Origin: Jiangella mangrovi
GTDB taxonomy: Bacteria; Actinomycetota; Actinomycetes; Jiangellales; Jiangellaceae
Direction: 5' to 3'
Length of the DNA: 64,000 nt
NCBI RefSeq assembly: GCF_014204975.1
Contig: NZ_JACHMM010000001.1
Location: forward strand, 3,162,001-3,226,000
The notes beneath the pieces are model-generated. The model was not told the DNA's origin and ran no database searches. It saw only the letters and a list, made by a program, of their open reading frames with translations. The position numbers and the translations under genes were made by a program. Shown piece after piece: positions 4,541-5,699 of the stretch (its first letter is position 1; the number at the start of each line of letters is the position of its first letter).

Positions 4541-5359
4541 TCAGGTCCGCAGATCGACGGTGTCGCCGTCGCGCAGGCCGAACTCGCGCGCCGCCGAGCC
4601 GCCGTTGACGACCAGCTCGAGGAATCCCGGGCCGGAGCTGCCGGTGACCAGCGCAGCCGTGCCCGCCGGCACGTCGGACAGGTGGTCCTGGAACGGCACC
4701 TTCCGGGTGCCGACGGCGACCCGGTCACCCGCCGTCACACCCAGGCCTGCGGCCGTGACGGTGAGCTTGCAGTTGCCGAAGTTGTCGACCAGTGCGACGC
4801 GGACGCCGTCGGGCCGCTCGGGGACGGGCAGCTCCACCGGCGACGACGGCACGGGTCGCTCGTCGAGCACCCATTTCGCGAGCAGCGGCAGGTACCAGAG
4901 GCTGCGGAACTGCGTGGCGGCGACGTCGACGGCGTCCGGCTCGCCGATCGCTGCCCACCCGCCAGGCCCGCCTGCCGCGTCGAGCACCGTCCGCGCGCCC
5001 GTCACCTGAACCGTCGTGACGCCGAGGTGACGGCGGACCGGGTCGAGCAGCACCGGGTCGTACGTGGAGAACACGGTGTGCCGGCCGTGCCGGAACCAGC
5101 CGAACGGCGCGCCGTTGGGCCAGCTGCCGTCGCGCGGCGCGACGTTGACCAGCGTCACCGTCGGGAAGCCGTCCTCGCCGAGCAGCCGGGTGGACAGCAG
5201 CACGTCCAGCAGCGTCAGCCCGGCCGCCTCGAGGGGCGCGGGCCCGCCGAGCGGCAGTACCACCGGCGACCGGCCGAACAGCGCGGCCATGCGCGTGGTC
5301 AGCCGGGCCTGCGCGTTGGTGTCCGAACAGTCGGTCAGGTAGGTGATCGGCGCGTACAT
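4541..5359 (-). CDS. SAM hydroxide adenosyltransferase / chlorinase-fluorinase fold protein (DUF62)
   Basis: Members of this fold attack S-adenosylmethionine with hydroxide or halide, releasing methionine and adenosine or a halo-adenosine. The 272-residue length and ITYLTDCSD at the start, VALVDNFGNCKLT in the middle and FLELVVNGGSAAREFGL in the C-terminal domain fit the family. It is divergent: the N-terminal motif is normally LTDFG, so the catalytic details are uncertain. ATG 5359 is preceded by GAGGGG at about 6 bases. Upstream lie an intrinsic terminator and a Met-rich leader ORF, which suggests control by methionine or SAM supply. Hydrolysis is the default expectation; halogenation cannot be claimed. 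Confidence 0.75.
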   Translation of the reverse strand: MYAPITYLTDCSDTNAQARLTTRMAALFGRSPVVLPLGGPAPLEAAGLTLLDVLLSTRLLGEDGFPTVTLVNVAPRDGSWPNGAPFGWFRHGRHTVFSTYDPVLLDPVRRHLGVTTVQVTGARTVLDAAGGPGGWAAIGEPDAVDVAATQFRSLWYLPLLAKWVLDERPVPSSPVELPVPERPDGVRVALVDNFGNCKLTVTAAGLGVTAGDRVAVGTRKVPFQDHLSDVPAGTAALVTGSSGPGFLELVVNGGSAAREFGLRDGDTVDLRT

Positions 5360-5402
5360 GGTTCCCCTCGGGACGGGATGCAGGCATCAACAAGTCATGG
5401 GC

Positions 5403-5437
5403 AAAAAAAGGGGGCCCCCGCAGAAGTGCGGGAGCCC
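5403..5437 (-). terminator. intrinsic terminator/attenuator in leader of the SAM-hydrolase gene
   Basis: Read on the minus strand, an 11-bp stem (5437-5427 with 5422-5412, one G-T wobble) closes a CTTC loop and is followed by CC and seven T residues (5409-5403). It is the clearest T-tailed intrinsic terminator I found in the window. It lies 43 bases before the start codon of the downstream gene and about 20 bases after the stop of the Met-rich leader ORF, so it is placed to terminate transcription before the gene rather than after one. Confidence 0.85.
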
Positions 5438-5458
5438 GGTGAGCTGACGGTGGAGGCG

Positions 5459-5506
5459 TCAGGCCAGCATCGAACGGCCGCACATGGAGTGCAGCATTCG
5501 CATCAT
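5459..5506 (-). CDS. Met-rich leader peptide (15 aa), candidate attenuation leader
   Basis: The minus strand encodes MMRMLHSMCGRSMLA followed by TGA, with five methionines in fifteen residues. It sits between the divergent promoter region and the terminator at 5437-5403 that precedes the SAM-hydrolase-fold gene. A small hairpin (5462-5457 with 5449-5444, CTGACG/CGTCAG) spans its stop codon, and leader bases reading GTGCGG at codons 8-10 can pair with CCGCAC in the 5' arm of the terminator, offering an antiterminator. A GTG six codons upstream is an alternative start. The ribosome-binding site is weak. Function is inferred from layout only. Confidence 0.6.
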   Translation of the reverse strand: MMRMLHSMCGRSMLA

Positions 5507-5699
5507 GGCCTGGCCGTGCGTCACGTCACAGACCGTACCTACGCGCGTTCGACGTGGTCAAGCCGTACGGTGCCGGTGGAGGGCCTTGCACACCGGCGAC
5601 GACCGGGGGCCGGAGGCTCCCGCGAGTCGGCGGTCGAGAGCGCAAGGCGGAGAGAGCGGACTTTGGCGTGCAAGGCCCGACACGTAGAGGATGACTGTC

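Follow-up and report, generated by a model that had tools for sequence, protein, structure and literature searches.

The 64,000-nucleotide (nt) stretch of Jiangella mangrovi DNA analyzed here (contig NZ_JACHMM010000001.1, positions 3,162,001 to 3,226,000; the window) carries on its minus strand a short leader open reading frame (ORF) and a U-tailed hairpin, which precede the gene for a divergent enzyme with the fold of S-adenosylmethionine (SAM) hydrolases. We propose that leader and hairpin probably constitute a trp-type ribosome-mediated transcription attenuator in which methionine is the most likely control amino acid. The anatomy of the sequence, its conservation, the pairing of leader with gene, and the predicted RNA structures were established directly, and from them we infer translation of the leader, ribosome stalling, the methionine signal, and the activity of the enzyme, which would probably be useful under methionine shortage. 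The parts of the locus are as follows.

5556 to 5561, minus strand: −35-like hexamer TTGACC of the putative leader promoter, assigned by eye and present in every Jiangella locus but L006 (10 of 11)
5532 to 5537, minus strand: −10-like hexamer TACGGT, 7 nt ahead of the leader start codon
5459 to 5524, minus strand: leader ORF encoding VTHGQAMMRMLHSMCGRSMLA and a stop, with a GTG start, probably leaderless; assigned from the sequence and from the comparison within Jiangella and beyond
5492 to 5503, minus strand: control codons ATG-CGA-ATG-CTG (NTG-CGA-ATG-NTG in relatives), found in 56 of 56 leader records, 53 of them distinct
5489 to 5494, minus strand: region 1, CTGCAC, computed to pair with region 2 and to lie under a ribosome sitting on the control codons
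5478 to 5483, minus strand: region 2, GTGCGG, the computed 5′ strand of the antiterminator
5426 to 5431, minus strand: region 3, CCGCAC, the computed 3′ strand of the antiterminator, spanning the end of the terminator 5′ arm and the start of the loop
5412 to 5437, minus strand: intrinsic terminator hairpin (3:4) of 11 base pairs with a loop of 4, from the terminator scan
5403 to 5409, minus strand: T7 run of the terminator, from the sequence and the terminator scan
5364 to 5369, minus strand: Shine-Dalgarno-like GAGGGG of the regulated gene, assigned by eye
4541 to 5359, minus strand: regulated gene for a 272-amino-acid (aa) protein with a predicted SAM-hydrolase/fluorinase fold and a divergent N-terminal domain (Pfam, structure model, and fold search)

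The first-pass annotation had placed here a methionine-rich minus-strand ORF encoding MMRMLHSMCGRSMLA, with five Met codons (5506 to 5459), and this frame is present. The ORF is real, but it probably begins with a leaderless GTG at 5524 rather than at 5506 and would then encode VTHGQAMMRMLHSMCGRSMLA. A leaderless mRNA is suggested by the fixed 7-nt distance between a TAnnnT box and the start codon. The promoter boxes were identified by eye and by conservation, and no consensus sigma-70 promoter was detected by a consensus scan of the leader region. They fit the TAnnnT and nTGACn boxes given for Streptomyces lividans in an earlier report (PMC8079986). Both boxes stand ahead of the leader, and an additional transcription start past the terminator may exist. 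About 21 nt separate the stop of the leader ORF (end at 5459) from the T7-tailed hairpin (5437 to 5412), which lies between leader and gene as the annotation had described, and GTGCGG (5483 to 5478) is indeed able to pair with CCGCAC (5431 to 5426).

Leader and hairpin are conserved within the genus. The genus sample comprised 60 related genomes, 12 of which, including that of the window, are Jiangella. A full-length orthologue of the gene was found in 11 of the 12 Jiangella genomes, and all 11 loci have kept the leader and the hairpin; G004 lacks both leader and gene. The exact leader pattern was matched in 10 of the 12 genomes, G009 having ACG in place of one ATG, and the leader of L011 contains a 3-nt insertion that adds one ATG and preserves the frame. 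In 8 of the 11 Jiangella leaders, HSM has L, R, K, or P in place of its Met, and SML reads SLL in 2 of the 11. Only the ATG that follows CGA is invariant, in Jiangella and beyond, among the five Met codons of the window's leader.

A wider sample was then compiled with one genome per species, in which 92 relatives yielded 80 loci that were kept (46 from Actinomycetes and 34 from metagenome-assembled genomes [MAGs]) and 12 that were dropped. The 46 actinobacterial loci, 6 of which match loci of the 11-member Jiangella set, span Jiangellaceae, Kribbellaceae, Streptomycetaceae (which include the Streptomyces and Streptacidiphilus loci), Actinospicaceae, and Micromonosporaceae. NTG-CGA-ATG-NTG, encoding [M/L]-R-M-[M/L], lies within a short upstream ORF in all 46 of them. 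The conservation of leader and terminator in relatives, which the annotation had set as a check, thus extends over five actinobacterial families. TGCGAATG was absent from all 34 distant loci, where up to 500 nt upstream were searched (only 179 nt in one locus). The TAnnnT box stands exactly 7 nt ahead of the ORF start in 44 of the 46 loci and 6 or 8 nt ahead in two; the ORF-calling script favored starts with such a box, the exact 7-nt spacing not being imposed.

Among the 56 leader records (53 distinct), the codon at motif position 0 is ATG in 54 and CTG in 2, position 1 is CGA and position 2 is ATG in every record, and position 3 is ATG in 29 and CTG in 27, with ATG at position −1 in 38. Across 37 orthologous genes, CGA makes up 3.6% of the Arg codons. 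Met runs of varying length precede the motif, which is itself rich in Met (TMRM, MMRM, MMMRM, MMMMRM, MMRMM, MMMRMM, AMRM, and ALRM), and the peptide outside [M/L]-R-M-[M/L] diverges between clades. In the leader of L078, a 1-nt deletion lies 3′ of the motif, which is itself intact. In the Kribbella leaders L028 to L033, the frame after the motif shifts between species (MRMLSPRCGGL versus MRMLSPRCGRTSAA, each followed by a stop), with the motif and the paired regions constant. Five leader peptides run against NCBIfam in search of a known leader-peptide family gave no matches.

Leader and gene also occur together. The leader pattern was found in 5 of 295 Streptomyces genomes, each time directly ahead of the gene, and a profile search for the gene returned the same five genomes; three of these five loci are identical to Streptomyces loci in the 46-locus set. 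The motif MTGCGAATGMTG has a single match in the whole 7.16-Mb genome of the window, namely, the leader control codons. Among 246 Actinomycetia genomes, the gene was detected at an E value below 1e-30 in 11 Jiangella only. The leader pattern matched 22 of 393 Actinomycetia genomes, of which 3, all Jiangella, were judged to be real leaders from open frames and flanks, the remaining 19 being set aside by eye alone; this pattern demands a C-rich tail that is missing in most Jiangella leaders and therefore undercounts. In Streptomycetaceae, 13 of 297 genomes contained the leader in a search with the leader pattern alone.

The window hairpin is the sole terminator-like site between 3500 and 8500, and since shuffled sequences yield 0.8 such sites on average, the hairpin alone is no better than chance. 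For the 181-nt region that includes the terminator, the fold was better than in every one of 200 shuffles (z of −3.88). Conservation is the decisive evidence that the element is real. A hairpin was found at the matching place in all 56 leader records, in 53 by script and in 3 (the window, L038, and L042) set by hand. It stands behind the leader in 53 of 53 distinct leaders, 51 with a U-rich tail; the tail has at least five T in 8 positions in all leaders except L038 and L042.

To simulate stalling, the RNA of the 56 leader records was folded up to the terminator loop, and the probability that the terminator 5′ arm pairs upstream was read out. The RNA was kept single-stranded as far as 12 nt beyond the first base of the A-site codon, the edge assumed for the ribosome footprint. 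Records were grouped as Jiangella (11), Kribbella (16), Streptomyces, Kitasatospora, Streptacidiphilus, and Actinospica (28; the Streptomyces-like group), and Catellatospora (1). With the A site on the four conserved codons, upstream pairing of the 5′ arm has a mean probability of 0.72 to 0.81 in the Jiangella, Kribbella, and Streptomyces-like groups. At codon +5 it is 0.40 in Jiangella, 0.52 in Kribbella, and 0.13 in Streptomyces-like leaders, and in untranslated leaders it is 0.48, 0.30, and 0.07, respectively. With the ribosome at the stop codon, it is 0.04 to 0.16 in the Streptomyces-like leaders L041, L049, and L027, and the off state is clear only in this group. These folds predict mutually exclusive 1:2, 2:3, and 3:4 pairings, 2:3 being favored by a ribosome on the control codons.

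The antiterminator partners are GUGCGG and CCGCAC in Jiangella, CGGAGG and CCUCCG in Streptomyces, and, for Kribbella, GCGGAGGACUCU or GCGGGAGGACUUC in a broken helix. Because the partners differ from group to group, the register is conserved with different sequences, and the competing helices keep their place relative to the conserved codons alongside Met runs of variable length. In a linker-shuffle control on antiterminator strength alone, 6 of 9 leaders tested were unusual (3 to 17 of 300 shuffles reach their value). When a stall on ATG was contrasted with codons +5 to +8, 46 of 53 distinct leaders exceeded 95% of their own linker shuffles (Jiangella, 11 of 11; Kribbella, 12 of 16; Streptomyces-like, 23 of 26), and the group mean was matched by none of 40 shuffle sets in each of the three groups.

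A working model of the switch can be outlined from these features. Transcription would begin at or beside the leader start codon, and the leader would be translated while emerging. When Met-tRNA is scarce, the ribosome would stall on the NTG-CGA-ATG-NTG codons and cover region 1, so that region 2 could pair with the terminator 5′ arm; the antiterminator so formed would let RNA polymerase reach the enzyme gene and perhaps also, in the Streptomyces relatives, a downstream amino-acid importer. When Met-tRNA is plentiful, the ribosome would advance and cover region 2, and the terminator would form.

The Met-rich motif with the Met runs ahead of it, the genomic context, and the scarcity of Met in the enzyme favor methionine as the signal. 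In the single Catellatospora locus, metK lies directly behind the gene (TIGR01034 score of 516 bits, cutoff of 309). A gene for a family-3 amino-acid substrate-binding protein comes next on the same strand in 21 of the 23 Streptomyces-like loci of the 46-locus set and in L134 and L137, so that 23 of the 25 distinct Streptomyces-like loci have an amino-acid ATP-binding cassette (ABC) importer behind the gene. In the loci of the 46-locus set, the binding protein is followed by an ABC permease and/or ATPase gene; L134 and L137 are too short to show one. The exceptions are L043, which stops at a contig edge, and L063, which has other genes. Importer genes were recognized by short peptide motifs, and only L058 and L027 were also compared with family models. 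As for composition, all 44 orthologues counted have 0 to 2 internal Met residues, and the 16 from Kribbella have none; their Cys content is 1.3 to 1.9%. Met averages 1.3% in neighbor genes and 1.2% in the 34 distant relatives. A low Met content fits a methionine signal, without proving it, because a protein made in methionine shortage should be Met-poor.

A number of observations weigh against the proposed switch or its proposed signal. The antiterminator profile is not exclusive to the motif, since a ribosome close to the start codon mostly gives 0.4 to 0.7; Kribbella leaders reach 0.73 one codon ahead of the motif and 0.75 one codon past it, and the profile of the one Catellatospora leader is maximal beyond the motif (0.92 at codon +7). 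Jiangella leaders still give a mean of 0.47 (0.59 in the window) once the ribosome has reached the stop codon, which is not below the 0.48 of the untranslated leaders. Antiterminator strength is unexceptional in L010, L011, and L038 (reached by 69, 60, and 112 of 300 shuffles), and the contrast test, whose offsets were picked after the stall profiles were known, was failed by 7 of 53 leaders. As for the signal, the best models for the importer are lysine/arginine/ornithine, cystine, and glutamine systems, all below cutoff; the next gene in Jiangella is a LytR-CpsA-Psr gene, and in the two Kribbella loci examined it lies on the opposite strand. Low Met content is also shared by other proteins: 11 of 116 neighbor genes are at or under 0.27% Met, the canonical DUF62 protein of Jiangella is likewise free of internal Met, and the protein of the regulated gene ranks only fourth lowest in Met among 28 window genes. 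Poor translation initiation in a methionine-starved cell also fits badly with a Met leader. The motif of L035 has one Met only, CGA is more strictly conserved than the Met codons that flank it, and a stall on CGA performs equally well in the model.

The ORF, Met codons, and promoter-like boxes expected of an attenuator are present, with an invariant CGA (Arg) codon among the control codons. The annotation's claim of a Met-codon attenuator stands insofar as a leader controlling a terminator is supported, but methionine is unproven as the sole control amino acid, given that the CGA beside the ATG is the most strictly conserved codon. An invariant rare codon beside a sensing codon poses a sharp question; it would be compatible with an accelerator of stalling beside the sensing AUG, with a sensor in its own right, or with part of a short arrest motif. 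Base pairing alone was rejected as the reason for CGA: in leaders free of ribosomes, the codon is paired in the Jiangella and Streptomyces-like groups, but the A of CGA has almost no pairing in Kribbella and Catellatospora. A bolder reading, which we consider rather unlikely, is that sensing resides in the CGA-ATG pair, where inosine-adenine wobble at a CGA in the P site would sensitize the next AUG to the supply of Met-tRNA, or that [M/L]RM[M/L] is an as yet undescribed arrest motif responding to methionine or SAM; in either case the leader would control an unrecognized branch of the SAM-hydrolase fold, and in some lineages an amino-acid importer as well, in methionine shortage. It is less likely still that the attenuator senses slow decoding at CGA (Arg-tRNA, inosine wobble) and hence responds to arginine, to the state of tRNA-Arg, or to general stress on translation instead of methionine. 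Such a sensor would account for a codon that is invariant in all 56 records though rare among Arg codons, it yields the same antiterminator probability in the model with CGA in the A site, and upstream ORFs sensing translation stress are described in PMC12121999; it leaves the extra Met codons of variable number, the metK gene of Catellatospora, and the low-Met enzyme without explanation.

We deem it improbable that [M/L]-R-M-[M/L] acts as a nascent-chain arrest motif sensing methionine, SAM, a related metabolite, or an antibiotic in the ribosome tunnel, with the attenuator downstream working as in our model. These four residues alone are common to all clades, and the residues downstream, even the frame after the motif in Kribbella, vary; however, the stretch preceding the motif, the part expected to line the tunnel, diverges between clades, and we know of no bacterial arrest motif of this kind for methionine or SAM. 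Conservation of TGCGAATG at the nucleotide level could also be taken for a riboswitch or a protein-binding RNA element with an incidental ORF, a reading we find very improbable given that the sequence outside the motif differs by clade, the spacing to the start codon is kept, and the 3-nt Met insertion is in frame. At the Rfam gathering cutoff, no family was found in the window and only a tRNA in six relatives. Neither a SAM riboswitch nor a T-box gave a covariance match at the leader, and E values up to 5 brought three unrelated weak matches. Least probable of all is a plain terminator or spacer without regulation, the gene being driven by another promoter: the hairpin is strong, as this would have it, yet it co-occurs with the gene in five families and the competing helices hold a constant register.

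The trp-type attenuator that we favor has known counterparts. Classical amino-acid attenuators (trp, leuS, and ilv candidates) have been reported in Actinobacteria (PMC1262725), and the element resembles them in its short leader ORF, its control codons, and an antiterminator competing with a U-tailed terminator ahead of the gene. It differs from them in that the control codons are Met and an invariant CGA and the gene is no known biosynthesis gene. The annotation had known of no described example. For this gene the statement holds in the literature searched, but a putative Met leader, metL, was put forward in 2021 ahead of metNIQ in S. lividans (PMC8079986). In that report, metL is likewise a leaderless leader peptide with several Met codons and proposed methionine-dependent attenuation; its peptide, MSTTSDRTPATEATTTPGARCMCRRMCAF, is without the MRM motif, no typical terminator is noted there, and its gene is a methionine importer. 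Unlike metL, the Jiangella-type leader has a clear terminator, broad conservation, and a different gene. The literature search for a Met attenuator, or for a leader ahead of this gene, returned only metL, most subscription papers lying outside its coverage. If our reading is true, the element is a broadly conserved case of methionine as attenuator amino acid, with a clear terminator.

The annotation had assigned the regulated gene to the SAM hydroxide adenosyltransferase fold. The fold itself is borne out, but the Pfam match is confined to the C-terminal third of the 272-aa protein, which matches PF20257 (SAM_HAT_C); the rest has no Pfam match at E up to 0.001. PF20257 is present in 22 of 22 members of this enzyme branch, and the N-terminal domain PF01887 was matched in none of them at E up to 0.1. 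An AlphaFold2 model built from 22 orthologues reached a predicted local distance difference test (pLDDT) score of 90.8 and superseded a poor earlier model (pLDDT, 62.8) from 11 sequences at 68 to 91% identity. By Foldseek and VIA, the model matches SAM hydrolases, chlorinases, and fluorinases over its full length (Z of 16.1 to 20.7, the next unrelated fold scoring 6.4), with VIA Z values of 20.7 to 2zbv, 20.0 to 2wr8, and 17.0 to 1rqp. The protein is thus predicted to have the complete two-domain SAM-hydrolase/fluorinase fold.

In full-length fold and C-terminal Pfam domain, the protein is like the DUF62/(R)-SAM hydrolase and fluorinase family (PF01887 plus PF20257; PH0463, Thermotoga maritima 2zbv, fluorinase 1rqp, and SalL). 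It is unlike them in that PF01887 goes undetected and the DP and GRD motifs have become N-x-A-P-R and Q-F-R-S. The catalytic Asp and His of known SAM hydrolases sit in the DP and TFHGRD motifs. Compared with four canonical proteins, N-x-A-P-R-D-G and T-Q-F-R-S occupy the places of D-P and T-F-x-G-R-D, and a profile alignment (probability of 96.9%), which is distant and somewhat uncertain, places A74 opposite the Asp of DP and R152 opposite the residue just ahead of GRD. The catalytic Asp and His motifs therefore appear to be replaced, and the description of the enzyme as SAM consuming, which the annotation had used, is not established, because PF01887 is undetected and the catalytic motifs are changed. 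The divergent enzyme is a separate branch of the fold, for which a SAM-consuming label is not justified yet. The role of DUF62-type enzymes is debated, SAM hydrolysis looking wasteful and at least some members possibly acting otherwise (PMC12120602). An apparent methionine-supply switch, conserved and tied to one branch of the fold, offers a physiological clue and a testable condition for the enzyme.

A canonical DUF62-type gene, with the motifs DPxVGTxRR, GPDNGLL, and TFDGRDVFAP, also occurs in six Jiangella genomes (L015 to L020), so that two branches of the fold coexist there. The distant relatives at 31 to 39% identity (L065 to L077, L079 to L094, and L096 to L100) are leader-free and come from MAGs that by name are mostly Patescibacteria; in the 8 of these 34 loci whose neighborhoods were read by eye, the neighbors look like housekeeping genes and offer no clue to the role of the enzyme. 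In G601, the gene match is split into two pieces that meet at residue 125 (L133, the same as L095, Streptomyces diastatochromogenes; L156 and L157). The gene matches of L095 and L078 measure 806 nt, which is no multiple of three; the frameshift is either genuine or a product of faulty assembly.

A 119-nt repeat with inverted ends, recognized by eye (GGGCCTTGCAC...GTGCAAGGCCC), occupies positions 5572 to 5690 of the window, with the thioesterase gene on one side and the promoter of the leader on the other. By eye, no copy stands at the same place in the other 10 Jiangella loci. The repeat has 13 matches in its own genome, itself included, and looks like a small mobile or repetitive extragenic palindromic (REP)-type element.
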